Origin: Cenarchaeum symbiont of Oopsacas minuta
GTDB lineage: Archaea; Thermoproteota; Nitrososphaeria; Nitrososphaerales; Nitrosopumilaceae
DNA length: 64,000 bases
Assembly: GCA_029948415.1 (NCBI GenBank)
Contig: JAJIZT010000001.1
Coordinates: 459,429-523,428, forward strand
Direction: 5' to 3'
Shown here: positions 8,063 to 31,539 of the stretch, one piece after another
Layout: the number at the start of each line of letters is the position of its first letter
Position numbering within the stretch: position 1 is the first letter of the stretch
The notes under the pieces: model-generated
The model's input: only the letters and a program-made list of their open reading frames with translations
The model's database searches: none
What the model was told of the DNA's origin: nothing
Translations under genes and position numbers: made by a program

Positions 8063-8143
8063 GTATGAGGTCACGTCCCTGCCTATAATTATCAAGAAAG
8101 TTCTAGATTTCCGCACAAAATTACAGAGTAGCTGACCTTGTAC
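8063..8143. mobile_element. MITE-like element, copy 1 (81 bp)
   Basis: Starts GTATGAGGTCA. Its right end TGACCTTGTAC is a slightly decayed inverted copy, with two mismatches in 11. The interior (CGTCCCTGCCTATAATTATC, then AAGAAAGTT) is shared with the copies at 9617 and 31459. It is flanked by an exact 8-bp direct repeat AAATTATA (8055-8062 and 8144-8151), the footprint of transposition. It has no coding capacity, so it is non-autonomous; the transposase is not in the window. It lies upstream of the eL21 promoter. Confidence 0.85.
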
Positions 8144-8280
8144 AAATTATACATATACTAACATGTTTATCACTATTTTTGACACAATTACGGAATTTCA
8201 AAGACGGAATTTGCTGTATGTAAAGCTGTACATATCATAAAGTTGGGATCTGAAAAAAAATAAAAAAATGAAAAATATGT

Positions 8281-9429
8281 CTATTCTTTTGTTTTAGTAT
8301 CGTCTGGTATGGTATCTTTTACAGTGCTAGTGTCTGAATCTTTGTCTTTTTGATTTGATGTGTCTGTTGACTCGGTCTCAGATTCTAAATCTGTCTTTTT
8401 TGTATCAGTTTTTTTGACTGTAGTTTTTTTTGGCGTAGCTGTCTTTTTCGTCTTTTTTACTCCTTCCGAATCTATATCTATTACACCAGCTTCACCTAGT
8501 GCAAAGATGACTTCTTCTTCAGGATGGTGTGGACTGTCTACCATGCGTGCAATTCGTTTCTTACCGGATTTTTTAAAATAAATCCGATATGTACTTGTAT
8601 GCGCAACAACGTTTCCTCCTATAGGTCTTGTAGGATCTCCAAAGAAAACGTCTGGAGATGCCATTACTTGGTTTGTTGCAACTGCTGCACAGTTGTATGT
8701 TTCAGCTATTCTTGAGAACATATGTACAAAGTGGTTTAATTTCTGTTGTCTAGCTGAGAGTGTTCCTCTTCCAAGATATTCTGCTCTAAAGAGCCCTACT
8801 GCAGAATCTGCAACTAGGAGTTTAACATTATTTTCTTTTATTACAGGACCTGCTTCTTCTAGAATGAGTGTTTGATGTGCACTGTTGTAAGCTCTTGCAA
8901 CAATAATGTTGTCTAAAACTTTTTCGGGATCCATTCCATTTGCATTTGCAATAGATACGATTCTTTCTGGTCTAAAAGTATTTTCTGTGTCGATGTATAA
9001 CACATTACCTTCCAAACCGCCTTCCTCTTTTGATCTTTGTACTTGGACACACAAACTATGGCAAAATTGCGTTTTACCACATCCATATTCACCATATACT
9101 TCTGTAAGTGCTTGCGTTTCAATTCCACCGTCAAGGAGTGAGTCGAGGCAATCAGTTCCAGTTGTAATTTTACCTATATCTTGTCTTCTTTTGTATATCT
9201 CTGTAGCACTTTCAAAGCTTTTTTTGAGAATGCCTTCAGCTTCAAGATGTTCGCGTGCCTTGTTTACAATTTTGTCGGCTGTGTCTTTTTCCATGCCTGT
9301 TATATCTGCAATTTCTACTGGACCACGAACAACTAGATCCATAACGCTGTGAACTCCTGCACCACTAAGCTTTTTGGTAGTTACAGGACCTACGCCTTCG
9401 AGACTGTCTATTCTTATGTCTTCTGTCAT
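8281..9429 (-). CDS. radA: DNA repair and recombination protein RadA
   Basis: Archaeal RecA/Rad51-family recombinase that forms filaments on single-stranded DNA. The N-terminal helix-hairpin-helix domain (residues 1-65) contains LEGVGPVTTKKL. Walker A is GEYGCGKTQ (113-121), Walker B is VKLLVADSAV, and loop segments include ATNQVMASPD. The core ends near 322. The remaining about 60 residues are a low-complexity tail of Lys, Thr, Ser and Asp, which makes the protein (382 aa) longer than typical RadA. A TATA box and a 9-bp direct repeat precede the start. It appears monocistronic. Confidence 0.93.
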   Translation of the reverse strand: MTEDIRIDSLEGVGPVTTKKLSGAGVHSVMDLVVRGPVEIADITGMEKDTADKIVNKAREHLEAEGILKKSFESATEIYKRRQDIGKITTGTDCLDSLLDGGIETQALTEVYGEYGCGKTQFCHSLCVQVQRSKEEGGLEGNVLYIDTENTFRPERIVSIANANGMDPEKVLDNIIVARAYNSAHQTLILEEAGPVIKENNVKLLVADSAVGLFRAEYLGRGTLSARQQKLNHFVHMFSRIAETYNCAAVATNQVMASPDVFFGDPTRPIGGNVVAHTSTYRIYFKKSGKKRIARMVDSPHHPEEEVIFALGEAGVIDIDSEGVKKTKKTATPKKTTVKKTDTKKTDLESETESTDTSNQKDKDSDTSTVKDTIPDDTKTKE

Positions 9430-9430
9430 T

Positions 9431-9459
9431 AGTACGGTATAGTACGGTACCTATAAAAG
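9431..9459 (-). promoter_or_regulatory. radA promoter with tandem 9-bp repeat
   Basis: A TATA-like CTTTTATA on the minus strand (about 9452-9459) sits 23-30 bases before the radA ATG. Between it and the ATG lie two copies of AGTACGGTA (plus-strand reading, 9431-9439 and 9441-9449), exactly 10 bases apart, one helical turn. This layout over the probable transcription start suggests an operator. No regulator is identified. Confidence 0.45.
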
Positions 9460-9616
9460 AGTTGTGATAATAAATTCAATTAGATGCAATACACAAAAAA
9501 ATTGAGTTATGCAACAGACTAGATGTATTTTTGATTTTATTCCTAGATGGCCTAGGGGCATGAGCGCATGTAATTGCAAAGTTTACAATATTTTTATGAT
9601 CTATAATGCATTCTTT

Positions 9617-9695
9617 GTATGAGGTCACGTTCCTGCCTATAATTATCAAGAAAGTTCCGCATTTACGCACAAATACAGAGTAGCTGACCTCATAC
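9617..9695. mobile_element. MITE-like element, copy 2 (79 bp)
   Basis: Perfect 11-bp terminal inverted repeats, GTATGAGGTCA at 9617-9627 and TGACCTCATAC at 9685-9695. The interior is close to copies 1 and 3, with two bases missing near the right end. The flanks are an exact 8-bp direct repeat CATTCTTT (9609-9616 and 9696-9703). It lies about 160 bases upstream of the radA TATA box in otherwise gene-free DNA. Confidence 0.9.
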
Positions 9696-10430
9696 CATTC
9701 TTTTACCTTCTCCAAAATAGCACATATCTTGTCAAACTTTTCTTCAAATAATCAATTTTCAACCAATTATCTTCCATCTTTAATTACTGTGCCATATGCT
9801 ATGACTTTTGTGCATACCTGGTCTATTTTACAACTAAACTACAATCTAGCATTTTTTTACCTATAATTGAATAATGTGTGATTCACCTTTTTGTATAACG
9901 ATAAAATCTCCAAATTCTATACATGAAAGATCATGTTTGAGATTATTCTACCAATACATCATTTATAACATTGATGTGAACGAGTTTTTGATGTCATACC
10001 ATATTCGTATGAATTTTCTAACGCATGTTAATTTTTGTTTTCTCAATATATCATTACATGACAGATCACGTATTATGTCAATGCCTTTATCAAAACGTTT
10101 TAGCTAGATTAACTATAGTAGATCGAAAGAAACCTGTTACCATTTTTCTTACGTACATATTGTTTACATAACTATTTGTATTTCTATGATTCTGTCACAT
10201 ACGTTTGGTTTTCTTTTTTCTAGAGTTGTTTATTCATGATTAATAATATGTCGATCAAAAAACTTTGGCAAATGTACATCCAAAAAATATTTTTCTTCAT
10301 TACATATGTCAGTAACATGTTTAGAATCACTGTTCTTTTTGTTTTACGATAATTTTTGGATCTTTTAGTGTAGAATAAAATCTAAAATTAAAAATGAAAA
10401 GAAAAATAGTGTATTATGTATGTGATTGAC

Positions 10431-10751
10431 TTATGGAAGAACTTGAATTTCTCCGAATTTGCCTTTACCGATTGAGATTTCGCCCTTAAAGGAAGACGTA
10501 TAACCGTTGGTGATTTTGATCTGTGCGCCTTGGGAAACTTTTTCAATGTCTTCTGCCCATAGAGTGATCTTGATCTCTTCGCCTGTGCTGTCTTTCAAAT
10601 ATGCGTCGCAAACGTCGATAGTACCGCCAGTTTTTTTACTGACTGTACGTGTTTCGCCTTTGCGGACGATTTCGCCTTCGAGGTTGATGCCATTTCTCAT
10701 GTTTTTGGCTTGGTCAATTGTGTGCATGCTCATATCGACACAATTTTGCAT
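10431..10751 (-). CDS. OB-fold single-stranded nucleic-acid-binding protein
   Basis: A single OB fold of the RPA/SSB type. The core runs from GINLEGEIVRKGETRTV through a KKTGG turn to VCDAYLKDSTGEEIKITLW and GAQIKITNGYTSSFKGE. This is the usual pattern of archaeal ssDNA-binding proteins, and 106 aa is one domain only. The start at ATG 10751 is supported by a TTTATTAA box beginning 26 bases upstream; in-frame ATGs at 10733 and 10727 are alternatives. The codon and base composition is visibly GC-richer than its surroundings, as in highly expressed genes. A role as the main SSB is inferred. Confidence 0.8.
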   Translation of the reverse strand: MQNCVDMSMHTIDQAKNMRNGINLEGEIVRKGETRTVSKKTGGTIDVCDAYLKDSTGEEIKITLWAEDIEKVSQGAQIKITNGYTSSFKGEISIGKGKFGEIQVLP

Positions 10752-10900
10752 GGCAATTATTAAGTTTTGTTAATAAATGAGTATGAGATCATCGAGTGAG
10801 TGGAATCGTCAAAATTTACATATAAAATGATGCCTATAGATGTGTACAAAGAATGAGAATAGCCGCAATTGAAAAATACGGTCTAATTTGACCATAGTAT

Positions 10901-10996
10901 GCAGGGATATCGAAGCTCGGTCAACCGAGAAGGACTCAAGATCTATAAGATATCCTTTCCTTTAGGGGTTCGTGGGTTCGAATCCCACTCCCTGCA
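10901..10996 (+). tRNA. tRNA-Leu (CAA) with 11-nt intron
   Basis: Acceptor arms GCAGGGA and TCCCTGC, T arm GTGGG-TTCGAAT-CCCAC, and a long variable arm identify a type II tRNA. The anticodon stem AAGGA/TCCTT encloses 18 nt instead of seven. Removing 10941-10951 leaves loop CTCAAGA with anticodon CAA. The intron is at the canonical 37/38 site. The bulge-helix-bulge is relaxed: CTCA pairs with TAAG with one C-A mismatch, and the bulges are AGA and ATA. No CCA is encoded. Confidence 0.9.
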
Positions 10997-11016
10997 CTCA
11001 TTTAATCTTGGAAATT

Positions 11017-11130
11017 CTATACGGCTAGTTCTTTTACTGAATGATGGGAGATCTCTTTGTGAAGCTCAGCATGATCTTGCTCTTTGAATATTAATTTACA
11101 TCTAAAACATTTCCATACTATATCTTCCAT
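11017..11130 (-). CDS. Small C2H2-type zinc finger protein (37 aa)
   Basis: A short frame starting ATG at 11130 and ending TAG at 11017. It encodes MEDIVWKCFRCKLIFK followed by a His-rich helix. C8 and C11, then H24 and H29/H30, fit a C2H2 finger (C-x2-C-x12-H-x4-H). The codon pattern and compact fold signature make a real gene likely despite the size. Proteins of this kind are common in thaumarchaea, but I cannot assign a target. It converges with the tRNA-Leu. Confidence 0.65.
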   Translation of the reverse strand: MEDIVWKCFRCKLIFKEQDHAELHKEISHHSVKELAV

Positions 11131-11284
11131 AACTATATTACATCATCAAAATATAAAAATATGATGAATTATCGATCTTGAAAAGATCTGGCATAATTAC
11201 CACAAAACAATTTTTCACTAGTTTGAATTAATTTGATATCATATAACCAAAAACTGTTTAGTAGAGTAACATAACTTCAATTAT

Positions 11285-11902
11285 ATGGATATTTTTGGAA
11301 TGTTTGCAGAACTATCTTATGCTGGAGTATTGGCAATACTAGTAGCAGTTAACACTGCTCCACTCTTGATGCCTCCTACGTGGATAATTCTCTCTTCATT
11401 TTATATCCTAGATCCAACATTCAATCCGATATATCTTGCATTGGTAGGAGCTACGGGTGCTACAGTAGGACGGTTTATGTTGAAAAGACTAAGTGGATTA
11501 TTTAGAAGATTTGTAAATGTAGAACAAAAATCCAACCTTGATTATATATCATGTTATTTAAAAAATAAAAAATTTGGTTATGCTATTGCATCATTTCTCT
11601 TTGCTGCAACACCACTTCCAAGTAATATGCTTTTTGTAGCATATGGATTAATGCGAGCCCGTAGTATTGGACTATATCTAGGATTTTGGATGGGCAGAGT
11701 GATTTCATATTATATAATGATATCAATAAGTCAGATAGTATTACATCCATTTTTAGAATTGTTTGAAGACAAATTGGTTGGAATACTGGTGGCAGATGTT
11801 GTAGGAGTCGCCGTGGTTGTATTGTTTGCGTCTATAAAATGGAGAATATTGGTAAAGGAAAGAAAGATTCAGTTTACAAGACCTCGCATATGGAAACTCT
11901 AA
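11285..11902 (+). CDS. Small multi-pass membrane protein (VTT/DedA-like)
   Basis: 205 aa with about five hydrophobic segments: 12-40, 48-62, 90-115, 125-150 and 165-185. The arrangement (PPTWIILSSFYI, then a GATGATVGRFMLKR loop, then FLFAATPLPSNMLFVAYGL) resembles the SNARE-associated/VTT fold of DedA proteins, including the charged-Arg loop and the proline/small-residue turn. DedA proteins are linked to lipid scrambling and membrane homeostasis. The family call is tentative. It stands alone, 155 bases after the small zinc finger gene. Confidence 0.6.
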   Translation: MDIFGMFAELSYAGVLAILVAVNTAPLLMPPTWIILSSFYILDPTFNPIYLALVGATGATVGRFMLKRLSGLFRRFVNVEQKSNLDYISCYLKNKKFGYAIASFLFAATPLPSNMLFVAYGLMRARSIGLYLGFWMGRVISYYIMISISQIVLHPFLELFEDKLVGILVADVVGVAVVVLFASIKWRILVKERKIQFTRPRIWKL

Positions 11903-11985
11903 AAATATAAAAACTTCGATACACCTAGAATTGCAATTATAAAATCTGCCAAAATAAAAAACAGCACACTAAGATAAATGTGAGA

Positions 11986-12297
11986 TTAACCATAGTCAAC
12001 ATACCGTTTATACCGTTTTTCAATCTCTCCATTTTCTCCAGCAAGAATCTTTTTGATCTCATCTACATGACGCTGCCGTATATACGAGATCATATCTTCA
12101 AACTCTTTTGAATCTGGATAGGATGAAAAAAGTGACTCTAATAGCCCAAAATACTCTGCAGTTTTCTTGCGAAACTCTTCTACTGACGGTTTTTTTTCAC
12201 CATTCATACGAAACCATACTGCAGTCCAGCTTGCTCCAACCACATGTGGTAGAATATCCAACGCTCGCTCTATCTCAAAGCGCCAGTCGTCTCTCAT
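11986..12297 (-). CDS. Hypothetical protein in hem operon (103 aa)
   Basis: Not recognised. A helical, charged, soluble protein with a Trp-rich N-terminal half (DDWRFEIERALDILP, ASWTAVWFRMNG) and an amphipathic C-terminal half. Its ATG overlaps the hemB stop by four bases, so it is co-transcribed and probably translationally coupled to hemB and hemA. That context is the only hint at function: a tetrapyrrole-related or regulatory accessory role is possible. Confidence 0.7.
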   Translation of the reverse strand: MRDDWRFEIERALDILPHVVGASWTAVWFRMNGEKKPSVEEFRKKTAEYFGLLESLFSSYPDSKEFEDMISYIRQRHVDEIKKILAGENGEIEKRYKRYVDYG

Positions 12298-13277
12298 CTA
12301 TATTCTGCCAACTTTTGGGCTACTTGTTTTGCAAAATATGTCATTATAATATCTGCACCTGCTCTTTTTATAGATGATAAAATTTCATGTGTTATCTCAT
12401 CTTCGTTTACCCATCCTTGCATGGATGCAGCCTTTACTAGTGCAAACTCGCCAGATACACTGTACGCTGCTATGGGTGTAGTAAATCGCCTTTTTGCCTC
12501 TGCTATAAGATCAAGATAAGCAAGGGCAGGTTTTATCATCAACATATCTACTCCTTCATCATAATCTGCCTGTAACTCACTAATCGCTTCGCGTCCGTTT
12601 GTATACGGGACTTGGTATGTTTTTCTATCACCAAACTTTGGAGCACATTCGGCAGCATTACGAAACGGCGAATAAAATGAAGAACGATGTTTTGCTGAAT
12701 GTGACATTATGGCCACATCCTCATGCCCTGCATCGTCTAGAGCGGATCTAATAGTTGCTACCTGTCCGTCCATCATTGCAGAAGGAGATACCACATTAAC
12801 GCCAGCATCTGCCTGACTCACTGCGATACGTGCAAGTGTGGTAAGACTTGAATCATTATCAATTTTACCATTTTTCTCAAGACCGCAGTGTCCTGACAGT
12901 GTGTATTGACAAAGACAGACATCTGCCATTACAACAATTTTTTCTCCCAAGACGGAACGTATGGAAGATATGGCTTGTTGTATGGCACCTTTATCTTCGT
13001 ATGCTGCAGAACCTATATCATCTTTTGTGGTTGGTATGCCAAACAGCATAATTGCAGGTATTCCAAGATCTGCTGCAGAACTTGCCTCAGCTGCTATATC
13101 TTTTATAGGAAGACGGCGCATCTCTGGCATTGATTTTATATCGACGGGTGAATCTATTCCATCTTGAACGAACATTGGAAGTACAAGGTCTGTTGGACTC
13201 AGAGAGCTCTCACGCACAAGATCCCGCATGCTTGAAGTACTGCGCAATCTTCGAAGGCGTCTTGAAGGAAAAGACAT
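12294..13277 (-). CDS. hemB: Delta-aminolevulinic acid dehydratase (porphobilinogen synthase)
   Basis: Condenses two 5-aminolevulinate molecules to porphobilinogen. The cysteine-rich metal site DVCLCQYTLSGHCG is present, so a zinc enzyme is likely. The two active-site lysines are in SAKHRSSFYSPFR and MLMIKPALAYLD. Length of 327 aa is normal. I took the ATG at 13277; a TTG codon directly before it is in frame. It sits between hemA (34 bases upstream) and a 103-aa gene in a minus-strand hem operon. Confidence 0.93.
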   Translation of the reverse strand: MSFPSRRLRRLRSTSSMRDLVRESSLSPTDLVLPMFVQDGIDSPVDIKSMPEMRRLPIKDIAAEASSAADLGIPAIMLFGIPTTKDDIGSAAYEDKGAIQQAISSIRSVLGEKIVVMADVCLCQYTLSGHCGLEKNGKIDNDSSLTTLARIAVSQADAGVNVVSPSAMMDGQVATIRSALDDAGHEDVAIMSHSAKHRSSFYSPFRNAAECAPKFGDRKTYQVPYTNGREAISELQADYDEGVDMLMIKPALAYLDLIAEAKRRFTTPIAAYSVSGEFALVKAASMQGWVNEDEITHEILSSIKRAGADIIMTYFAKQVAQKLAEYR

Positions 13278-13310
13278 CAAATGTTAAACCTATCTCTGCA
13301 AATATTAATC

Positions 13311-14573
13311 CTAGTTAGAATCATCATAGTCAAATAGCCTTGAGGCTGCATCAAGCACGTTTGTTTTACCTTCTTCTGAGGCTTTTCTGAGATTGTTCAT
13401 GGGTGTGGATATTGTGCTCTCTACTATGGCCTTTGTCAGATCGTCTATAACCTTTGTCTTTTCTACGTCCATCTCACCAAGTATACGTAGAGCCTTTTGA
13501 AGTTCTTTTTGTCTGCGCGATTCTATACTTTTGAATATGTTACTTACTATTGGTTCTGCGTCTAGACGGTTCATGGACATCTCGATAATGGGAATCTCCT
13601 CACTAATTATGTTTTTAATCTCACGTAGTTTTGCCTCTTTTTTACGAGCATTCTTGTCTACCATCTCGGCTATCTGATCTAGATTCATCAGTTTTATGCC
13701 ATTTAATGTGGCTACGCGCTCATCGACCGTACGAGGGTTTGAAAGATCTAATATCATGATGCCTTTAGAACCATTCTCTTTGGCTGTGGCGATCTTTTCA
13801 TGTGTGACTAAAAAGTATGGAGCAGAAGTTGCCACAAACATCACATCATATTCTCCAAATCTTTCAAAGGCATCCTCAAATTTTATTGCAGATCCTCCGC
13901 CCATTGTTTCACAAAATGATTTTGATCTTTCATGTGTACGACTTGCGACGGAGAATTCATACCCACGTCGTATTAGTGACTTTGCAACAAGGCTCGATAT
14001 CTCACCGGTTCCAATGAGCAAAATCCGTTTTGTTTTAATATCCTCAACGTTCTCTTCTGCAAGCTTTACTGCCATTGAACCCACCGAAGTACCACCGCGT
14101 CCAAGTCCAGTAGATTTTCTGATGCGTGCTCCTGCACGAACAGATCTATCAAAAAGCGCATCAAGTCTGCGCCCACTCGAACCGGCCTCTTTGGCAGCGG
14201 ATATGGAACCACGTATCTGCCCAAGAATCTGTTCCTCTCCGATTACCATTGATTCAAGTCCTGAAGTTAGATGCAAAAGATGACTTGTAACTTCGCAGCC
14301 AAGACTAAACTCGATATTTCTGGAGATTGTATTATCATCTATTCCAGCAAGCTCTGCCCATGTATTGCTTATTTTTTTATAATCTAGATCTGTAACCGTA
14401 CCATACACCTCGACTCTATTACATGTCTGAACTATGACACATTCTTCAAACCCAGAGCGTCTTTTAAACTCGACAAGTGCTATCTCTGTATTCTTGAACA
14501 TGAATTTTTCTAATACATGTATCGGTGATCTACGAAACGTCACGCGAGCGTTTACAAGCGCCACATTATTCAA
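13311..14573 (-). CDS. hemA: Glutamyl-tRNA reductase
   Basis: First enzyme of the C5 tetrapyrrole pathway, reducing Glu-tRNA to glutamate-1-semialdehyde with NADPH. The catalytic Cys is in VIVQTCNRVEVYG. The family segment GLESMVIGEEQILGQIR follows, then the NADPH Rossmann motif LLIGTGEISSLVAKSL and the C-terminal dimerisation helix. Length of 420 aa is typical. Its start overlaps the end of the Met8-like gene by eight bases. The operon order is met8-like, hemA, hemB, 103-aa protein. Confidence 0.93.
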   Translation of the reverse strand: MNNVALVNARVTFRRSPIHVLEKFMFKNTEIALVEFKRRSGFEECVIVQTCNRVEVYGTVTDLDYKKISNTWAELAGIDDNTISRNIEFSLGCEVTSHLLHLTSGLESMVIGEEQILGQIRGSISAAKEAGSSGRRLDALFDRSVRAGARIRKSTGLGRGGTSVGSMAVKLAEENVEDIKTKRILLIGTGEISSLVAKSLIRRGYEFSVASRTHERSKSFCETMGGGSAIKFEDAFERFGEYDVMFVATSAPYFLVTHEKIATAKENGSKGIMILDLSNPRTVDERVATLNGIKLMNLDQIAEMVDKNARKKEAKLREIKNIISEEIPIIEMSMNRLDAEPIVSNIFKSIESRRQKELQKALRILGEMDVEKTKVIDDLTKAIVESTISTPMNNLRKASEEGKTNVLDAASRLFDYDDSN

Positions 14574-15222
14574 ACTCCTTTAACATATCCATGGCTCGAT
14601 TACGTGCCATCTTTATCCTGTCCTGTTTTATAAGCCGTATTACCTCTGAATCACGCATAACTGCATAGAGGTATTTTTTACGCATGGTTTGGTTTGATAT
14701 AGATCTCTTTGCTGCCATTCTAGCAGTATGCTGTAGATTTATCTGCACAATATCTTCTTTTGTGACAAGCGCATTTAGGGGTTTTTCAGCTCGCATTCTA
14801 ATCTCTCTTGCCATAGCCGGACTCTTACCACTAGTAGATACAGTAACTTGTACCGTATTTCTGATGTTTATGACTGATGGGTGAGAAAAATCACTAAAAT
14901 CAGGATCGTCAGAGGCGTATACCATACAACCTGGAATTTTTCTTGCTTTTTTTACAATATCACAATTGAGTTTTCTATCATTGGTGGTAGCCATTACTAA
15001 AACAGGTTTGTATTTTAAAAGAAATTTTCCATCATCTAGATCCGCTTTTATGAATTCAATCTCTTTTGCTTTGATATGTTTCTCAATTATAGGATTTGAT
15101 GTTTTTCCAATTACCAAAATTTCACAGTCTTGTGTTAAAAGTGAGTTTATTTTTTTCAATCCTTCGGCTCCTGTCCCGACTATGATTACCAATCCTCCTT
15201 TAAGATAGAGATCAACGATCAA
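14566..15222 (-). CDS. Precorrin-2 dehydrogenase / siroheme synthase N-terminal type (Met8/SirC-like)
   Basis: Oxidises precorrin-2 to sirohydrochlorin with NAD, and in some homologues also inserts iron. Visible are the NAD-binding IIVGTGAEGLKKINSLL, the VMATTNDRKLNCDI segment, the VYASDDPDFSDFSHPS region and VTVSTSGKSPAMAREIR, all typical of CysG N-terminal/Met8 proteins. I chose a TTG at 15222 (reading IVDLYLKGGLV next) because homologues begin there and a TATA box lies 23-31 bases upstream. A TTG at 15282 is the longer alternative. It leads the hem operon. Confidence 0.85.
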   Translation of the reverse strand: MIVDLYLKGGLVIIVGTGAEGLKKINSLLTQDCEILVIGKTSNPIIEKHIKAKEIEFIKADLDDGKFLLKYKPVLVMATTNDRKLNCDIVKKARKIPGCMVYASDDPDFSDFSHPSVINIRNTVQVTVSTSGKSPAMAREIRMRAEKPLNALVTKEDIVQINLQHTARMAAKRSISNQTMRKKYLYAVMRDSEVIRLIKQDRIKMARNRAMDMLKEFE

Positions 15223-15244
15223 CTGATGATTATGACTTGCACGG

Positions 15245-15253: not shown

Positions 15254-15314
15254 CCATGATGGCAGCCTACATTTTTAACCAAAGAAGATCACGCGCCAAA
15301 TATTGCAGCAAAAG

Positions 15315-16654: not shown

Positions 16655-16658
16655 AAAA

Positions 16659-18193: not shown

Positions 18194-18194
18194 A

Positions 18195-23352: not shown

Positions 23353-24675
23353 ATGGGCATGTTAGATACGGTATTGCAGGCTCACGAAATCCAAGATTCA
23401 CTTGCTACTGGCGTAGGAAATGTTATAGATCAGATAACACCAGAACTGCCTCATACGACGTTTGTTACAGACCTTGCAATAATTATGATCATAGGTTCTG
23501 TTATAACATTAGCGTTTTTCAAGATACGTCAACCACTCATCATAGGATATCTTTTTGCCGGTATGTTGATTGGACCACTCTCACCGTTGTGGTCTAATAT
23601 ACTTCCAGAAAGTGGAAAAAACTCTGCAACTGGAATTGGAATTCTCTCAGATGTGGGGGCACTAAATCTTTTTGCTGAGATTGGAGTGATATTGCTTTTA
23701 TTTGTAATAGGGATAGAGTTTCCATATTCTCGAATACGGTCTATAGGCAAAGTTGTAGTTGGTACTGGAACTGCAGGACTCTTTGCGACTTTGGGCGCAG
23801 TATTTTTTGCTACAAGTGCATTTGGTATGGAGTTTATGGATGCATTATTTATCGCAGCAGCACTGTCAATCAGTAGTACTGCTGTTATAGTAAAAATACT
23901 CACCGATCTTGGAAGAATTAAAAAACAGTCTTCCATACTTGTACTTGGCATACTTATTGTAGAAGATGTCATAGCGGTAATTCTGATATCAACACTACAG
24001 TCAGTGGCTCTTGTAGGATCTGTCTCCCCAGAGTCCATAATTGCAGTCATACTTGTAGCAGCTGGTCTCATCATAGGAACATTTACCGTTGGCACTCGCG
24101 TAGTGCCTCCACTCATAGACAAGATGGCTGCTACCGAACATCGTGAGATACTCTTACTAGGAGTTCTAGGAGTCTGCTTTGGATATGCACTGTTGGCAAA
24201 TATTGTGGGACTATCAGTTGCAATAGGGGCATTTCTTGCAGGCGTACTTGTGGCAGAATCTAAATCCTCAGAGGTCTCAAAGATGCTCTCAAGTCCCATA
24301 AAGGATATGTTTGTGGCCATCTTCTTCATCTCAGTTGGAGCATTGATGGACATTGGTGAGATTCAAAACTATATTCTGTTAGCGTTGGCCGTTATTGTTA
24401 TAGCTACTGTAACAAAATTTGCTGGAAGCTTTTTGAGTAGCATGGTAATGAGAGTATCGACAAAAAACTCCGCACGCTCTGCGTTTTCACTTGCAGCACC
24501 TAGAGGTGAATTTTCAATCGTCATAGTAAAGGTTGGAGTAGATTTGGGTGTTGTTAGTAGCTATCTCTTCCCTCTAATTGGAGTTATAACAATTATCACA
24601 ACGTTTGCTACACCGCTTTTGATCCGACTTGGAGATGTGGCAGTTGGACGATTGGAGTCAAAGAATGCCAATTAA
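23353..24675 (+). CDS. CPA2-type cation/proton antiporter (KefB/NapA-like)
   Basis: A membrane protein with about 12-13 hydrophobic helices. The family marks of monovalent cation:proton antiporters 2 are visible: GYLFAGMLIGPLSP, LFAEIGVILLLFVIGIEF, SISSTAVIVKIL, the ion-binding ILIVEDVIAVILIS (Glu-Asp in the unwound helix) and SVAIGAFLAGVLVAES. There is no C-terminal RCK/TrkA-N domain in this chain; the next gene may be an accessory. It likely exchanges Na+ or K+ for H+. Its 3' end overlaps the following gene by 11 bases. Confidence 0.88.
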   Translation: MGMLDTVLQAHEIQDSLATGVGNVIDQITPELPHTTFVTDLAIIMIIGSVITLAFFKIRQPLIIGYLFAGMLIGPLSPLWSNILPESGKNSATGIGILSDVGALNLFAEIGVILLLFVIGIEFPYSRIRSIGKVVVGTGTAGLFATLGAVFFATSAFGMEFMDALFIAAALSISSTAVIVKILTDLGRIKKQSSILVLGILIVEDVIAVILISTLQSVALVGSVSPESIIAVILVAAGLIIGTFTVGTRVVPPLIDKMAATEHREILLLGVLGVCFGYALLANIVGLSVAIGAFLAGVLVAESKSSEVSKMLSSPIKDMFVAIFFISVGALMDIGEIQNYILLALAVIVIATVTKFAGSFLSSMVMRVSTKNSARSAFSLAAPRGEFSIVIVKVGVDLGVVSSYLFPLIGVITIITTFATPLLIRLGDVAVGRLESKNAN

Positions 24676-25099
24676 CGATAGCATTCCATGCGAAGAGGAT
24701 CTTGAATCTCTGCGAGCACGGATGCATGATGATCTTGAGTTAATATCTGAAAAAGTAGGATATCCGTGTATTATAACTGAAAATGATCTCTTTGGACGAT
24801 TTGTTTCAGAGTATGAATCAGGATCACTTGTAGTAAACGTGGATCTTGATATACTGCGTGATGGATTAGGAAATGTTTTTGTCAATGTAAAATTTTCCAC
24901 AAACGATGTGAATGAATCATTTTTGATCGACGCAGTAAAACACATGTGGTTTTTTGAAACACTTGCAGACTCTACCATAGTGGGAATTAGAGCAAAGAAC
25001 GTAGATGGTAAGATCTTTGCTGTACAGCTTCCAAAACCAGATGCTGCAAAAGAAGCACTTGAAAAGATTCGTGATGGAATCAAGATGAATAAAAATTGA
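24665..25099 (+). CDS. Hypothetical protein coupled to antiporter (144 aa)
   Basis: Not recognised. A soluble alpha/beta protein with an acidic N-terminal helix (EEDLESLRARMHDDLELI), a beta-rich middle (SLVVNVDLDILRDGLGNVFV) and an amphipathic C-terminal helix. I chose the ATG at 24665, which overlaps the antiporter end by 11 bases; an upstream in-frame start would lie deep inside the antiporter gene. The coupling suggests a regulatory or cytoplasmic partner of the antiporter, but this is inference. It is followed directly by tRNA-Gly on the other strand. Confidence 0.72.
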   Translation: MPINDSIPCEEDLESLRARMHDDLELISEKVGYPCIITENDLFGRFVSEYESGSLVVNVDLDILRDGLGNVFVNVKFSTNDVNESFLIDAVKHMWFFETLADSTIVGIRAKNVDGKIFAVQLPKPDAAKEALEKIRDGIKMNKN

Positions 25100-25100
25100 A

Positions 25101-25177
25101 TGGTGCAGTTGCCGGGATTCGAACCCGGGTCACCAACTTGGCAAGCTGGAATAATAACCAAACTATACTACAACTGC
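25101..25177 (-). tRNA. tRNA-Gly (GCC)
   Basis: Acceptor GCAGTTG/CAACTGC, anticodon arm CCAGC-TTGCCAA-GTTGG with anticodon GCC, T arm CCGGG-TTCGAAT-CCCGG. The 3' CCA is encoded (25101-25103). No intron. Confidence 0.95.
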
Positions 25178-25218
25178 ACGGCATAAAATATCGGTAGAGT
25201 CTATAAAAGCCTAGTGTA

Positions 25219-25713
25219 CTATTTTAGAGGAATTACTTTTACAGTTGGTGTACAAGGCAATTTTACACAAGCTCCTTTTAGAGCTTTTTTTGTATGTTCT
25301 AGGTGCTCTTTTTTGACGTTTACCTCGTATATGCATTGACCTCGTTTTATCCGTGCCCCCAAGCTCACAGCTTTACCAAACGCACGTCTCATTCCTTCCT
25401 GAAGCCTATCTGCACCAGCAGTTGCAATCATCTTGTTCTCACGTAGCAGTACGTGTGGATAAATTCTAAGCCTTGATTGATATCCATTCTCACCTGCTAC
25501 CTTTTCTATGGTTTTGTTTGCAGCTAGACGGGTGGATTCTATGGCCATGTGGCGAATTTGTACCTCTTCATTTGTAAGTAGCTGTACACAATAATCATAG
25601 TCACCTGGTTTACCGCTCTGAAATTTGGCGATCTTTATCTGCGGCTTGCCTTTGATGTATTTTTTTCTCGCGTACGGTTGCCCATTTCCTCTCCGATAGT
25701 TTGCTCCATGCAT
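25219..25713 (-). CDS. rpl10e: 50S ribosomal protein uL16 (L10e)
   Basis: Archaeal L10e, the counterpart of bacterial L16, next to the A-site/peptidyl-transferase side of the large subunit. The family start MHGANYRRGNGQPYARKKYI, the middle YPHVLLRENKMIATAGADR, and the loop QEGMRRAFGK are clear. Length of 164 aa is normal. It is alone on its strand between tRNA-Gly and the divergent endonuclease gene. Confidence 0.94.
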   Translation of the reverse strand: MHGANYRRGNGQPYARKKYIKGKPQIKIAKFQSGKPGDYDYCVQLLTNEEVQIRHMAIESTRLAANKTIEKVAGENGYQSRLRIYPHVLLRENKMIATAGADRLQEGMRRAFGKAVSLGARIKRGQCIYEVNVKKEHLEHTKKALKGACVKLPCTPTVKVIPLK

Positions 25714-25800
25714 ACAGCATATCCACTCTGACCCATATTTTAATGGTCAAAAGACGGATATCGTTTGTATACATAATTCCATGCGTAACACATTCGATGT

Positions 25801-26439
25801 ATGCTTACAACTATCGAAATTATACAAACTAGTAGATTATCTCGGCGTTGGCTTATATTGAAAAAATCGCCAAATATGTTGATGGATGATGAACATGATG
25901 AGCCAGTAGTAGCAGCAGTTCTGAGAGGTACTGTGCCAGTAGTGCATGAAAAGTCGATGCAGGATCTTTTGCGCTCTAGAGGTTACGGTGAAGAAGACGG
26001 AGATCGGTACATTCTTAGACCGTTTGAGGCACTCTACCTGCTTTACAAAGGAAGCCTCTCTCTAAAAAAAGCTGGAAAGATAATTGGATTTGATTCGTTG
26101 ATGCGAATATACAAGTCAGAAGATGGAGGTGCGTTTACAGATTATTTAATATACCGTGATCTTCGCTCACGTGGATACATGGTACGAAAAGGATTCGGAT
26201 TTGGTTCTGACTTTTTAGTATATGAGCGGGGCGACTTTGGACAAAAAGGAGCAAAGTATTCTGTATTTGGATTCCGTGAAGGCAGTCGTGAAAAAATCAG
26301 AAACTTGCAAAAAAAAATTCATACAATGTCCAAGATGGGGAAAGAACCAATAATAGCTGTCATAGAACGTCGTGGGGAGATCATATACTATAAAGTTTCA
26401 ACATCTATTTTTACACAAAACATCAAAAAAATGGAATAA
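25801..26439 (+). CDS. endA: tRNA-splicing endonuclease subunit (EndA family)
   Basis: An archaeal tRNA-intron endonuclease subunit of 212 aa with an N-terminal domain (about 35-110) and the C-terminal nuclease-fold domain (115-205). The family segments YLIYRDLRSRGYMVRKGFGFG, the tyrosine in FLVYERG (Y141) and the terminal YYKVS (K198) match the catalytic Tyr and Lys of the Tyr-His-Lys triad. The expected His, 11 residues after the Tyr in A. fulgidus EndA, is Lys152 here. It may therefore be a structural subunit of a heteromeric enzyme. tRNA-Leu and tRNA-Met in this window carry introns it would help remove. Confidence 0.85.
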   Translation: MLTTIEIIQTSRLSRRWLILKKSPNMLMDDEHDEPVVAAVLRGTVPVVHEKSMQDLLRSRGYGEEDGDRYILRPFEALYLLYKGSLSLKKAGKIIGFDSLMRIYKSEDGGAFTDYLIYRDLRSRGYMVRKGFGFGSDFLVYERGDFGQKGAKYSVFGFREGSREKIRNLQKKIHTMSKMGKEPIIAVIERRGEIIYYKVSTSIFTQNIKKME

Positions 26440-26440
26440 T

Positions 26441-27088
26441 TCATTCAAGATCTGTGGCCCACTCGGATGAATATTTTAAGACGTTCTCACGTTCGGCTTT
26501 TGCATAGTCGTACAATTCTAAATATTTTGTTTTATTTTCCCAAAGGTTTTCAAAGTCTTGCATCTTTGTCATTGTTCTACTTGCGTCGTTCCATGAAGTA
26601 AAAACATCAACTGATTCAAAATCTCGATCCTGCATGTCAAATGTATGTGGTGACGTACCAGTAAAAGCCACCATGTCTCCAGATTTATCTGTAAATATTC
26701 CAACGCGCTCAGTGAACATTCCTGAAACTTCTTCATCATTTGAAACGGCAACTTTTACAGCTAGACGATTTTGGCGAACGGCCTCTTGAAGTTTATTGAG
26801 CTTTGTATCTCGTATGAAATCTCCAACAATTGACGTATTATTTGAAAATATCTTATTCATTAGAGCAATGTCTGCAGCTCCAAATCTGTGCCCAGAGACT
26901 ATGCGAACCTTTGTAGCAGGTTCATTACCTATTGCCAAAATTATTGTGGTAAGACTCTTTGCTGAAATACGTTCGACACATCTATCATACTCTATACAAT
27001 TGGCAAGACAAGGAACAAAAAATTCAGCTATAATATCGTCACGATCTGATCTATAGAGTTCTTTTAATGGTATGTCGTGCAGACTCAT
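26441..27088 (-). CDS. Stand-alone PLD-like domain protein with degenerate HKD motif
   Basis: Resembles the phospholipase-D-like N-terminal domain found ahead of superfamily II helicases: LKELYRSDRDDIIAEFFVPCL at the start and VAFTGTSPHTFD, then ESVDVFTSWNDA toward the end. In active relatives the motif reads roughly YHEKIGIF; here it is FTERVGIF, so His and Lys are replaced by Thr and Arg. No helicase follows in this chain. I start at ATG 27088 because a TATA-like ATTTTATTAT lies 23-32 bases upstream. It is divergent from the cytosine methyltransferase. A catalytic role is doubtful; nucleic-acid binding is plausible. Confidence 0.62.
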   Translation of the reverse strand: MSLHDIPLKELYRSDRDDIIAEFFVPCLANCIEYDRCVERISAKSLTTIILAIGNEPATKVRIVSGHRFGAADIALMNKIFSNNTSIVGDFIRDTKLNKLQEAVRQNRLAVKVAVSNDEEVSGMFTERVGIFTDKSGDMVAFTGTSPHTFDMQDRDFESVDVFTSWNDASRTMTKMQDFENLWENKTKYLELYDYAKAERENVLKYSSEWATDLE

Positions 27089-27468
27089 TGTGCCGTATGT
27101 TACATATCGGATAATAAAATGTTGCAGATTGATGATCAAACACTCAAATCTATCAAAATATGAAACATTGACAAATAACAATCATAGTAACTATCTAGAG
27201 TTTTAAAGTAACCTGACCATCTAATCCAATATTTTTCATCATTACATTTTTGGATCAGGTGCATAATACAAAAAGTCTACCTTTACCAAGTTTGTGTATT
27301 GTGTGTATTCGCCGTCTAATAATGTGCCTCCACACATTGTCATTTCGTATCAATCTAGAGAACATACCAACTCTGCATTTACACGGTCATACGTGAAAAG
27401 TATACTGCATTTCGGATAATAGACAGTAATACCCAATCTTTAAAATAAATAAGAAATAGTCTTGTCAC
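27089..27468. other. Intergenic region between divergent genes
   Basis: Holds two outward-facing promoters: ATTTTATTAT on the minus strand (27120-27111) for the PLD-like gene and TTTAAAAT (27439-27446) for the methyltransferase, each about 23-32 bases from its start. The roughly 300 bases between them show no gene or clear repeat. Confidence 0.45.
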
Positions 27469-28464
27469 ATGGCGCGCCGTACACGTAATATGACTCAAAC
27501 TTCGATCACAGTGGGCAGTATGTTTGCAGGAATAGGTGGAATTGATCTGGGATTTACCAATGCTGGATTTACCATAAAATGGGCCAACGAGATCGACAAT
27601 AAATCTTGCAAGACATATTCTGAAAATTTTGACCATAAAATGATGTGTGGGGATGTCGCCGATCTAAAGACCGTACCAAAGGTGGATGTCATCACTGCTG
27701 GCTTTCCATGCCAACCGTTTTCCATTGCTGGTAGAAAAATGGGCTTTAATGATAATAGAGGAGTTCTATTTTGGGAGATCTCTAGAATAATTAAAGCCGT
27801 AAGACCAAAGGCGTTTCTTTTAGAAAATGTAAAAAACTTAAAAACACATGATCATGGTAAAACGTTTGATACAATATGTAATATATTAGAAAACGAACTT
27901 GGATACAGAATATTTTCAAAGATTCTCAACGCTAAAAATTTTGGCGTGCCTCAAAATAGAGAAAGACTAGTTATTGTAGGATTTAGAAAAAACATAAAAA
28001 TCGATCATTTTGAATTTCCAGATTCAAAAAATAATAATGTTAAATTAAAAGATGTCTTAGAAAAAAACGTATTGCTTAATTTTTTCATATCAAAAAAACG
28101 ATACATTGGAATGAAACGACATAAAAAAAGACACGAAGATAAAGGACATGGATTTGGATATCGCATATTAGATAATAATGGTATATCAGGCACTATTGTT
28201 CTTGGAGGTATGGGTAAGGAGAGAAATTTGGTAATAGATAAAACATCATTTAGAAAATTAAAAAATACACCTGGAATTGAATCCAAAACTGAGGATGCTG
28301 TACGATATTTAACGCCGAGAGAATATGCAAGATTGCAAGGATTTTCAGATAATTATAAAATACCTGTTGCTAATATTTGGGGATATAGACAATTTGCTAA
28401 TTCAGTGCCAGTTCCAATGATTAAAGCTGTAGCACGTGAAATGAAAAATTTACTTTGTGTTTAA
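27469..28464 (+). CDS. DNA (cytosine-5) methyltransferase, orphan
   Basis: Complete m5C methyltransferase of the HhaI/Dcm type, 331 aa. Motif I is SMFAGIGGIDLGF, motif IV with the catalytic Cys is AGFPCQPFS, motif VI is LLENVKN, motif VIII is PQNRERL, and motif X reads FANSVPVPM. The variable target-recognition region lies between about 200 and 285. The ATG at 27469 follows a TATA box by 23-30 bases; a second ATG is at 27490. No restriction endonuclease gene is recognisable next to it. It may be a solitary methylase, or its partner may be the divergent PLD-like gene, though that protein lacks catalytic residues. Confidence 0.9.
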   Translation: MARRTRNMTQTSITVGSMFAGIGGIDLGFTNAGFTIKWANEIDNKSCKTYSENFDHKMMCGDVADLKTVPKVDVITAGFPCQPFSIAGRKMGFNDNRGVLFWEISRIIKAVRPKAFLLENVKNLKTHDHGKTFDTICNILENELGYRIFSKILNAKNFGVPQNRERLVIVGFRKNIKIDHFEFPDSKNNNVKLKDVLEKNVLLNFFISKKRYIGMKRHKKRHEDKGHGFGYRILDNNGISGTIVLGGMGKERNLVIDKTSFRKLKNTPGIESKTEDAVRYLTPREYARLQGFSDNYKIPVANIWGYRQFANSVPVPMIKAVAREMKNLLCV

Positions 28465-28611
28465 ACTCTATACGAATATAATGTCTACTATATTTAGGAC
28501 AATAGGACATCTCACTCGTTATGTAAGATTTTTTATTCAAATTGACACTCTACGTTTTGAAGAGTTGCCATTTTATATCTATATATATTATGAAATGTAC
28601 TGTATACATAC

Positions 28612-29406
28612 ATGTCTACTACACTACAAGCAATCATCATAGTGGTGGCAGTTGCAGCATTATCCATCGTAGCGATAGACTCGTTGGATATTTGGAAACA
28701 AGAATCGTTACAACAAAATGATGTTACTGTTATGACCAAAGAACATGCCGTCTATGCTACATATGAGGATAAACTCAGAACTATATCAGTTACTGGAACG
28801 GCTTCAGCGTCAGTGGATCCAGATATTTTCACAGTGCGACTTGGTGTGAAAACGCAAGATGAAAATGCAGGCAAGGCGTTCTCATCAAACTCAGAATCCA
28901 TGGAAAAGATAATCTCTGCTCTGATGGATACTGGAATTGAACGCGACGAGCTCTCAACGTCTTCGATCCGTATCTATCCTGTATATGGTGATTATGACTA
29001 TGAAAGAAACACATCTCCTCTAGTAGGCTTTAAGGCAGAAAACATTGTATTAATAGAAACTAGAAAACTTGATTTGGCCTCATCTATAATTGATAGCGCA
29101 TCAGATGCAGGAGCAAATAGTATAGATGGAATGTCCTTTACCTTGTCTTCAGAATTGCGTACAATGACGCAAAATTCACTCTTACAGGATGCAGTAAAAG
29201 ATGCTAAAAAATTAGCAAATGAGGCACTGCAACCTTTGGGTAAATCTGTATCTGACGTACAAACTGTAAACCTTTCACCTATATCATACGGTGGACATAA
29301 TGTGCAATATTCGATGGCAAAAGCAGAATCATTTTCATCAACACCAATATTTTCTTCATCAGAGGATGTAACTACTAACGTCTATATTGTATTTTTAATA
29401 CAATAA
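28612..29406 (+). CDS. SIMPL domain (DUF541) protein, membrane-anchored
   Basis: One N-terminal hydrophobic helix (residues about 6-25) followed by an extracytoplasmic SIMPL domain from about 55: ISVTGTASASVDPDIFTVRLGVKTQ, shortened here, then SSIRIYPVYGDYDYER and GFKAENIVLIETRKLDL. The C-terminal SPISYGG segment is typical of the family. SIMPL proteins (BP26/OMP28 type) are exported and oligomerise, with no established reaction. Stands alone between the methyltransferase and tRNA-Glu. Confidence 0.83.
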   Translation: MSTTLQAIIIVVAVAALSIVAIDSLDIWKQESLQQNDVTVMTKEHAVYATYEDKLRTISVTGTASASVDPDIFTVRLGVKTQDENAGKAFSSNSESMEKIISALMDTGIERDELSTSSIRIYPVYGDYDYERNTSPLVGFKAENIVLIETRKLDLASSIIDSASDAGANSIDGMSFTLSSELRTMTQNSLLQDAVKDAKKLANEALQPLGKSVSDVQTVNLSPISYGGHNVQYSMAKAESFSSTPIFSSSEDVTTNVYIVFLIQ

Positions 29407-29420
29407 TATAAAACTAGAGG

Positions 29421-29496
29421 TGCTCCCGTCGGGATTTGAACCCGAGATCACTGCCTTGAGAGGGCAGTATGCTTAACCGGACTACACCACAGGAGC
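29421..29496 (-). tRNA. tRNA-Glu (CTC)
   Basis: Acceptor GCTCCTG/CGGGAGC, anticodon arm CTGCC-CTCTCAA-GGCAG with anticodon CTC, T arm TCGGG-TTCAAAT-CCCGA. No intron. The bases after the discriminator read CC, then T, so a full CCA is not encoded. Confidence 0.93.
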
Positions 29497-29530
29497 CTCG
29501 AGCATAAGAAACGAATATCGCAATTTAAAG

Positions 29531-30091
29531 TTAGTTTGAGAATTTTCGAAGACCCTGTTTGCGCATTTTTTTGGACTCTTCTAATACAGCATCGCGACGG
29601 TTAACCTTGAATTTCACAAGCTTTGTAGCAATATCTGAGAATTCATTCGCAAGTATTTTTACTGCATACAATCCCGCGTTTGTAGCTTTGTTTATTCCAA
29701 CGCATGCAACAGGAGAACCTGTAGGCATCTCTGATATAGATACAAGAGAGTCGATGCCACCAAAAGCAGAAAATTTGTGGTCTTTACCTTGTTTGTCGTT
29801 GTATACAAGTATTGGAACACCAATTACTGGCATATCTGCATACGATGCGATCATTCCTGGAAGATGTGCTGCACCACCCGCTCCAGCTATTATGACACGA
29901 AATTTAGATTGTTTTGCATGCTTTGCATACTCTTCAAGTTTTGTAGGAGTTCTGTGAGCAGAAACTATTTGATCTTCATGCTTTATGCTAAATTCATCCA
30001 AAATTTCTGCAACTTTGACCATTATACGTGCATCTGAGCTAGAGCCCATGACAATTCCTACAAGGGGACTTTTTTTATAGCTCATTTTCAT
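29531..30091 (-). CDS. purE: N5-carboxyaminoimidazole ribonucleotide mutase (PurE)
   Basis: Purine biosynthesis enzyme converting N5-CAIR to CAIR. The family motifs VGIVMGSSSDARIM at the start, EDQIVSAHRTPTKLEEYA and IAGAGGAAHLPGMIAS are complete. The 186 aa include a short basic C-terminal extension after the core. A second in-frame ATG lies at 30085. purK is not adjacent. Cytoplasmic, monocistronic as far as the window shows. Confidence 0.94.
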   Translation of the reverse strand: MKMSYKKSPLVGIVMGSSSDARIMVKVAEILDEFSIKHEDQIVSAHRTPTKLEEYAKHAKQSKFRVIIAGAGGAAHLPGMIASYADMPVIGVPILVYNDKQGKDHKFSAFGGIDSLVSISEMPTGSPVACVGINKATNAGLYAVKILANEFSDIATKLVKFKVNRRDAVLEESKKMRKQGLRKFSN

Positions 30092-30162
30092 TCAGAATAT
30101 CAAAGTGGGCATTTTTATCTATTACCAACAGTCTACATTATACCTAAATATCTGGTCATGAC

Positions 30163-30405
30163 ATGACGCATATGCCAGAATGGACAGGAAAGCCAGTCAT
30201 AATGACTCCAAAATCTGGTGAAATTATTGCATATTGTATGTGTGGATTATCAAAGAATGGACCAGTGTGTGATGGCTCACACAAGGATACGGGGACAACT
30301 CCACACGTGATAAAATATGATGCCAATGAACGTATATCTGCATGTGGATGCAAAAGTTCAAACACATTACCAATATGTGATGGTACCCATAAGAATCAGA
30401 AATAA
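30163..30405 (+). CDS. CDGSH-type iron-sulfur protein
   Basis: An 80-residue protein with two CDGSH modules: YCMCGLSKNGPVCDGSHK and SACGCKSSNTLPICDGTHK. Each offers three Cys and one His to a [2Fe-2S] cluster, so two clusters are expected in one chain. Tandem small CDGSH proteins occur widely in archaea and bacteria and are linked to redox or iron handling. No membrane segment. Starts 72 bases after the divergent purE. Confidence 0.9.
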   Translation: MTHMPEWTGKPVIMTPKSGEIIAYCMCGLSKNGPVCDGSHKDTGTTPHVIKYDANERISACGCKSSNTLPICDGTHKNQK

Positions 30406-30468
30406 ATCAATGGTACGCAATTTGTTAAATTATATGATTATTGCATATTTAAGACAAGTGGAAACAAG

Positions 30469-31356
30469 ATGACTACAATGGATTTTCAAATGATACTTGA
30501 TGAATATTCCTTGGGGGATTTTCCTTTCGGTCTAATTGGTTGTAGAAATAGTGATATGACATACGAATGTTGTGAATATGATCTTGCCGTCTTTGACGAA
30601 CGTGACGAACTAGATACCATGGTAGAATACAAAGGCACAACCATCTGCATAAAACATTGTTCACTCTCGGCTCTACGTTCTCCTGACATGGTAATGTATG
30701 ATGATATGAAGATAATATCTGATACATCATGGGATCTACATATGATGCTCTCACGCATACGTGAGAATCGAAAACATCTGTACTCTGATTACATGAGGAA
30801 TTCGTTAATAGATTCTATGTTTTGTATCACAAAGTTTCAGGAAGGAGTAAAAATATCAGATCCTTTTGCAGTATGTTGGATAAAATGTTCTACGCTTTAC
30901 ATGGTCGATGCTATGCTCTTGTCATGTATGGAAAAACCATCTCCAACACATGCATTACAAAAACTTCGAATTGTACAAAAAAAAATATCTAATGATGCAT
31001 TTTCATTGATAACAGATTGCATTGGAGTGGAGCGTACTACACCTTTGCTGCTTGAACGTATGGCAAAATCCACAGCTGGATTTTCAGATATTGTGTATGG
31101 AAATGACCAATCTAAAACAATACTTGAAAAGGTTAGATATCTTTCATCAGAATCATTCTTGGCAGACTGTTATTTTTATCTGCAATATGCAAACCGAGAT
31201 ATGCTAATAAAAATAAAAAATGAGATTAGAAAGAAGCCCGATCTGATCTACATATTAAAAGTCTCGATGGATATGGAAAACGACATAACGATACTAGATA
31301 ATTATGCACACAGGCTGTACGATGAAGCAAACCGTATGCTTGCAGAACATTCATGA
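30469..31356 (+). CDS. Conserved hypothetical protein (295 aa)
   Basis: Not recognised. The N-terminal third is beta-rich and acidic, with Cys-rich spots (TYECCEYDLAVFDERDELD, CIKHCSLSALRSPD). The rest is helical, ending in DNYAHRLYDEANRMLAEHS. No signal peptide or membrane helix. The N-terminal segment of alternating charged and hydrophobic strands could form a nucleotidyltransferase-like sheet (DLAVFDERDE), but the catalytic GS motif is missing, so I do not assign it. A TATA-like CATATTTAAG lies about 25 bases upstream. Confidence 0.7.
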   Translation: MTTMDFQMILDEYSLGDFPFGLIGCRNSDMTYECCEYDLAVFDERDELDTMVEYKGTTICIKHCSLSALRSPDMVMYDDMKIISDTSWDLHMMLSRIRENRKHLYSDYMRNSLIDSMFCITKFQEGVKISDPFAVCWIKCSTLYMVDAMLLSCMEKPSPTHALQKLRIVQKKISNDAFSLITDCIGVERTTPLLLERMAKSTAGFSDIVYGNDQSKTILEKVRYLSSESFLADCYFYLQYANRDMLIKIKNEIRKKPDLIYILKVSMDMENDITILDNYAHRLYDEANRMLAEHS

Positions 31357-31458
31357 ACAACATGAGTGGCTTGAACAAAAAAATACCCTCACAATTCATG
31401 ATTGGAGCTCATTTGAGATTATGGTAAAGATGATGTGGCTGATTCCATATTGATATTC

Positions 31459-31539
31459 GTATGAGGTCACGTCCCTACCGATAATTATCAAGAAAGTTAT
31501 GTATTTACGCACAAAAATACAGAGTAGCTGACCTCATAC
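31459..31539. mobile_element. MITE-like element, copy 3 (81 bp)
   Basis: Perfect 11-bp terminal inverted repeats, GTATGAGGTCA (31459-31469) and TGACCTCATAC (31529-31539). The interior is shared with copies 1 and 2. It is flanked by an exact 8-bp direct repeat TGATATTC (31451-31458 and 31540-31547). It lies 18 bases upstream of the TATA box of the metallothionein-like gene. Confidence 0.92.

Follow-up and report, generated by a model that had tools for sequence, protein, structure and literature searches.

The stretch of DNA analysed here (the window, 64,000 nucleotides, G000 C1:459429-523428) belongs to the genome of the Cenarchaeum symbiont of Oopsacas minuta, an assembly of 1.63 Mb in 11 contigs with masked stretches, and holds three short units which, judged by their sequence, form part of a new family of miniature inverted-repeat transposable elements (MITEs) of a known kind. 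All three are read on the plus strand and each lies between its own pair of unstranded 8-bp target site duplications (TSDs). Copy 1 (8063..8143, 81 bp) is flanked by AAATTATA at 8055..8062 and 8144..8151, copy 2 (9617..9695, 79 bp) by CATTCTTT at 9609..9616 and 9696..9703, and copy 3 (31459..31539, 81 bp) by TGATATTC at 31451..31458 and 31540..31547. A sequence-only reading had placed three units of 79-81 bp with 11-bp inverted ends at these positions, each with a perfect 8-bp direct repeat of its own and with two intact termini in copies 2 and 3, and re-reading of the sequence agrees on all these points. The right end of copy 1, which had been taken for decayed, is in fact one of four TTGTAC ends (L027, L032, L037 and L033, the last being copy 1), three of them in copies with TSDs identical at 8/8 positions, and therefore marks a subfamily (CTAGATTT/TTGTAC) that has itself moved. 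Five exact matches to the 11-mer GTATGAGGTCA are present in the window, each of them at one of the three units; with up to two mismatches allowed its 19 matches are not above chance (shuffle mean 17.3).

The units are dispersed, non-coding, about 77-85 bp long and bordered by 11-bp terminal inverted repeats (TIRs). In the whole host genome, near-full-length copies number at least 41 and one further copy is partial, a lower bound because just 40 of the 115 first-look candidates were scored, while exact GTATGAGGTCA occurs 123 times, against two occurrences of the reversed control. An alignment of 46 rows, reduced to 43 full-length copies by dropping three partial or half MITEs, has an 81-bp consensus from which the copies diverge by 6.5% on average (among the rows kept is L015, whose left flank is masked and which is possibly an assembly duplicate of L018). 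The TSDs are identical at 8/8 positions in 18 of the 43 rows, at 7/8 in three and at 6/8 in one, and a 2-base shift of the right end gives 8/8 in one further row. Mismatched flank pairs, used as a control, gave 8/8 in 0 of 1,798 cases and at least 7/8 in one. Paralogous empty sites exist for two copies. The repeat interrupted by L032 (TSD CTTCAAGA) is whole, with a single CTTCAAGA, in L090 (98%) and L088 (96%); L065, a looser match, is likewise uninterrupted at this site, and L080 carries a changed word. The second copy, L005 (TSD CAAAAAAG), sits within the right end of an IS110-family element (family A, see below), an end that is uninterrupted and carries a single CAAAAAAG in L058, L057 and L066, as well as in L060, where one base of CAAAAAAG is changed. 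Ends, duplications, copy number and empty sites can all be read directly in the sequence.

Immobile structural or regulatory repeats, similar to repetitive extragenic palindromic (REP) sequences, would also be short and intergenic, as the units are in the window, and their presence in just one of 250 genomes of the host's family, namely the host's own, may be viewed in the same light. About half of the aligned copies (20/43) are without a recognisable duplication, which weighs against mobility. On the other hand, the frequency of 8/8 duplications relative to the control, the ends shared with a full transposon and the two empty sites, one of them inside another mobile element, support the earlier proposal that the units were mobile and transposed, and a lack of empty sites, which would have pointed to fixed elements, was not what was found. 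The empty sites rule out a fixed or REP-like repeat, an explanation which now deserves next to no credence.

The sequence-only reading had supposed that a non-coding unit of this type depends on a transposase encoded elsewhere, which recognises GTATGAGGTCA ends and makes 8-bp duplications, and an IS66-family candidate with matching ends and TSD length is resident in the genome. Inward-facing pairs of GTATGAGGTCA about 1.4 kb apart led to the larger elements, and most of the 12 stretches fetched contain IS66-type sequence, mostly broken. One element (L085/L048, C1:959857-961274) is intact. It is 1,418 bp long with a single frame of 443 amino acids (aa), starts with GTATGAGGTCAGCT and finishes with TAGCTGACCTCATAC, shares the first 11 bp at either end with the MITE (GTATGAGGTCA) and is flanked by the 8/8 TSD TACTTTTT, while another IS66 copy, L086, has no TSD. 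The 443-aa protein matches PF03050 (1.7e-34, 119.9 bits, cut-off 23.1) and NF033517 (2.3e-62, 211.3 bits, cut-off 180), and a target duplication of 8 bp is the length expected for IS66. The matching ends and TSD length make an IS66-family enzyme the most likely transposase of the MITE, on which it would act in trans. A second non-autonomous unit of about 290-303 bp, with both IS66 ends and no transposase gene, is found at G000 C1:962935-963237 (L053), C2:73057-73346 and C7:7298-7587.

Relatives of the 443-aa protein are present in 20 of the 250 family genomes, the host's own counted. In one of these (G005), which belongs to another genus, the two full IS66 copies examined (L131 and L151, 44% aa identity to the host's) have a perfect 20-bp TIR, GTATGAGGTCAGCACCCCCC, and 8/8 TSDs at both loci. 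The same genome has a MITE of its own, about 92 bp long and with the same IS66-type ends, represented by 46 matches including partial ones (40 of 111 candidates scored). Eighteen of 20 loci fetched at the 11-mers are MITEs, with TSDs of 8/8 in ten and 7/8 in four, and this MITE too is present in just one of the 250 genomes (G005). As each MITE was found in its own genome only, two genera each combine one and the same type of IS66 end with a MITE of their own. Homology between the interiors of the two MITEs is weak (94 of 2,000 shuffles were as good) and relatedness is not claimed; no IS110 insertion was seen among the 18 G005 MITE loci fetched. Two loci in G005 (L162 and L174) are MITEs in which other small inverted-repeat units are nested, the one in L162 being central and beside TA.

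The assignment to the resident IS66 element faces some opposing evidence. A full-length frame was seen in one of 30 IS66 loci read, and the direct parent of the MITE was not found, because the bases in common with the resident IS66 amount to 11 bp at the left end and about 15 bp at the right. The mover may instead have been another transposase that makes 8-bp duplications, either from an unseen IS66 subgroup or from another family: the left end continues as CACGT in the MITE and as CAGCT in the resident IS66, the interiors are unrelated, and a candidate IS66 relative in genome G128, with the left end GTATGAATTCACGT, is nearer to the asymmetry of the MITE. Given that the resident element agrees with the MITE in TSD length and in the outermost 11 bp of either end, and that the pairing of IS66 ends with a MITE recurs in G005, such a different transposase appears unlikely.

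The MITE is itself a target. Two larger elements with MITE ends proved to be MITE halves flanking an IS110-family element, and a search for further copies of the latter (40 of 106 candidates scored) revealed many copies of this family A and of a sister family B. The intact frame of family A has 362 codons (L060) and those of family B have 371 (L077 and L078). The L060 and L077 proteins are above cut-off for PF01548, PF02371 and NF033542, the scores for element A being 96.9, 77.3 and 207.1 bits, respectively. The loci examined contain 15 distinct family A right ends, of which nine lie in a MITE (L055-L059, L063, L066, L073 and L076) and six elsewhere (L005, L060, L061, L062, L070 and L100); the flank of L100 has the nine opening bases of the target, TGCATTTAC. 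Left out of the 15 are two internal duplications, found in L055 and L056, and also L067, a probable assembly duplicate of L066; L011 was not counted, realignment having failed to recover an IS110-A end. Of the left junctions, seven of 15 distinct ones lie in a MITE (L084 treated as a duplicate of L071). As far as these junctions tell, the MITE is the main landing site of family A.

The insertion point is exact. It is bordered by GTTC on one side and by TGYATTTAC or a near variant on the other, and no duplication is made. All six composites with both sides present have the element at the same nucleotide and in the same orientation, and removal of TAACC...AGA leaves an 81-bp MITE in five of them and 79 bp in the sixth. 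In copy 1 of the window the homologous junction, GTTC|T at 8103..8104 (unstranded, position deduced from the composites), is uninterrupted. The most variable columns of the MITE alignment are those at this point, and two 85-bp MITEs 35 bp apart (L013 and L014, G000 C1:595096-595180 and 595216-595300) have an extra TAGA exactly there, possibly a scar of IS110 excision. Some 0.4 kb from a full copy on contig C3 (G000), a right half MITE that starts with TAGATGCATTT is joined to other sequence (L002), and is perhaps the leftover of another central insertion. One might suppose that family A resides in MITEs merely as these are abundant, neutral DNA, without any guide; MITEs are dispensable and insertions into genes would be lost. 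However, MITEs make up about 0.25% of the genome if 50 copies are assumed, against nine of 15 right junctions (binomial 2e-20), and neither the single nucleotide and orientation in 6/6 composites nor the covariation of guide and flank described below is in keeping with it, so that this explanation is very improbable.

Another alternative is that the composite of MITE and IS110 transposes by itself as an autonomous element, or that its parts were amplified together. The composites L055 and L056 have perfect 8-bp TSDs, and L055 and L057 differ little in either part (1.2% in the MITE halves, 1.1% in the IS110 bodies). When all six composites are compared, distances between the MITE parts correlate with those between the IS110 parts (Mantel r 0.58, equalled or exceeded in 52 of 720 permutations), which is also expected from co-amplification and is driven by the divergent L066, and gene conversion between IS110 copies could feign their youth; both points argue against independent insertions. 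Against a composite transposon stand the four of six composites without a TSD (8/8 is kept in two) and the presence of family A outside MITEs at guide-matching sites (L060 and L062), and target duplication is uncharacteristic of IS110/IS1111 elements according to PMC11187229. The divergence pattern also counts against it: the IS110 bodies of L055-L059 are 0.6-1.6% apart (gaps ignored), and the MITE halves around them 4.9-8.6% in nine of ten pairs and 1.2% in the tenth. With bodies far closer than halves, family A most likely entered already diverged MITEs several times, and the composite as a single transposon is made quite improbable, even though the Mantel correlation leans the other way.

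The basis of this site choice may be found in the non-coding region of about 200 nt between the stop codon and the right end of family A. Immediately 5' of a GGAG hairpin lies a segment complementary to the element's right flank. In seven of the eight MITE-resident copies with a readable segment it reads TAAAT(A/G)TAT, the targets being AT(G/A)(C/T)ATTTA, while at non-MITE sites both partners differ: L060 has the guide CCACTATAT beside the flank ATATAGTGG (9/9) and L062 the guide TTAAAATAT beside ATATTTTGA (8/9). A segment is present at 13 loci, L076 and L100 being without one; across the 13, guides match their own targets at 73 of 91 positions, compared with a permutation mean of 58.9 and 0 of 20,000 permutations as high. 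With one entry per class the figures are 48/63 when the misfit L073 is kept (mean 37.2, 58 of 20,000 as high) and 45/56 without it (24 of 20,000 as high). A left segment, GTTCTA in MITE copies with the target GTTCT, fits most of them. In the predicted fold the inner GGAG/CUCC hairpin lies within an outer CCGC/GCGG stem, and the left and right segments face one another. The exact insertion point and the covariation of right guide and target belong to the sequence itself; that family A is RNA-guided is the most likely explanation for them.

Family B offers a partial parallel. Its right junctions (L077, L078, L079, L115-L120, L123, L124 and L127) lie beside a conserved word that resembles ATGCAYAAGGTCTAAT, and right guides from 12 loci match at 99 of 108 positions (a score equalled or exceeded in 256 of 20,000 permutations). 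Guide words such as CGTATGCAT (L078) and TTTATGCAT (L124) fit single-base changes in the flank, which does not hold for all copies. The words of family A recur in family B in like order. Among IS110 relatives in other genomes the layout pattern was seen in two of 12 loci scanned (L181 and L195), with fitting ends in L181 only, where the same word order and a right guide with 7/9 matches at the junction are found in another genus.

Several observations count against RNA guidance. The guide window was picked after viewing the data, and the rule was tested on the same data. Three of the 13 guide/flank pairs fit poorly (L061 3/7, L070 4/7 and L073 3/7), and L073 (G000 C1:434359-434691) lies in a MITE with an unfitting guide, CAAGTATAT, for which recombination between copies is a possible source. 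The left guide shows no covariation with the left flanks in either family (2,437 of 20,000 permutations as good in A, 5,963 of 20,000 in B), and the two segments are partly paired with each other in the predicted fold of family A. The folds of families A and B are not more stable than those of shuffled sequences (z -1.0 and -1.2), the minimum-energy fold of family B differs from that of family A, and an Rfam search of one composite (L045) returned no relevant match, the one hit being below its gathering score.

Taken together, it is highly likely that the MITE is moved by an IS66-type TnpC and serves as the landing site of an RNA-guided IS110 family. The genome encodes, at another locus, an IS66-family DDE transposase (TnpC), which would bind the GTATGAGGTCA ends and move the MITE in trans, the unit entering staggered cuts and thereby giving rise to 8-bp duplications. 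The recombinase of family A would in turn be guided by an RNA made from the non-coding stretch 3' of its gene; one segment of this RNA would pair with the MITE centre on its right side and so direct insertion to GTTC|T, in one orientation and without duplication. Production of this RNA, pairing of its left segment and present-day activity of the elements are presumed rather than seen.

A likely transposase class can hereby be named for a new archaeal MITE family, and MITEs sharing one type of IS66 end are now apparent in two genera. A single genome further contains two related IS110 families in which differing guide segments stand beside differing targets. This constitutes a natural data set on target change by IS110 recombinases, archaeal and with a MITE as the main target, and makes guide evolution testable by sequence comparison and simple plasmid assays. 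A tentative extension, more doubtful than probable, is that an RNA-guided IS110 lineage adopted the MITE as a safe harbour, that natural guide changes track the MITE centre, and that the centre is variable through repeated guided insertion, scars of excision or escape. If so, the extra TAGA of the 85-bp MITEs, which corresponds to the outermost T and AGA of IS110, would be scars.

As to the surroundings of the units, a minus-strand gene at 7713-8012 has its start codon about 50 bp from MITE copy 1 (gap 8013-8062), which thus lies upstream of it and may add to, or displace, its promoter. This gene matches an L21e model below its cut-off. A promoter and terminator scan gave nothing above shuffles. 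Elsewhere in the window are a 1,617-aa protein with NHL repeats, HYR domains and RTX-type calcium-binding repeats (37715-42568) and DNA methyltransferases of the C5-cytosine and N6/N4 types (27469-28464 and 52803-53579). That the host is archaeal is borne out by models for RadA and the archaeal proteasome alpha subunit, which score above their cut-offs.

Among the papers listed by searches of open-licence PMC literature, none was found on this MITE family itself or on an IS110 element targeting a MITE. Each component has counterparts in known systems. The resident transposon resembles the IS66 family (TnpC, DDE) in its PF03050 and NF033517 matches, its 8-bp TSDs and its ends beginning with GTA, and differs from it in that the 1,418-bp element is a single 443-aa frame with no space for tnpA and tnpB. 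The ISBst12-like subgroup of IS66 also lacks tnpA and tnpB. Family A has subterminal inverted repeats of 6-7 bp (TATGTGC / GCACATA), compared with 7-17 bp in IS1111, and its C-terminal motif GLxPSVRNSA (GLAPSVRNSA in L060, and GLVPSVRNSA in L077 of family B) stands in place of the S/T-G ending of the IS1111 motif GL-P----S(t)G. Because this motif is not matched, family A is filed under IS110 with an IS1111-like layout only. In two papers on IS1111/IS110 elements directed by seekRNA or bridge RNA (PMC11187229, PMC11208160), the IS1111 group is described as taking its guide RNA from downstream of the gene, with the top-strand complement 5' of the other match, and repeats such as REP and attC are already given as targets (both PMC11187229). 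Family A is like these elements in having a DEDD recombinase with a C-terminal domain, a non-coding region 3' of the gene, one site and one orientation, a repeat as target, and a top-strand complement 5' of a segment resembling the left flank. It is unlike them in that its left guide is without statistical support and in that it targets the middle of an archaeal MITE. The closest parallel to the MITE itself is MITECca01 of Cardinium, which according to its description (PMC9769881) is about 240 bp long with an IS982-type parent, and which is similarly short, non-coding, lineage-specific, present in many copies and presumed to be kept up by a resident parental insertion sequence (IS). By comparison, the archaeal MITE measures 81 bp, has IS66-type ends with an 8-bp TSD and an interior bearing no remnant of the resident IS, and is targeted by an IS110-family element.

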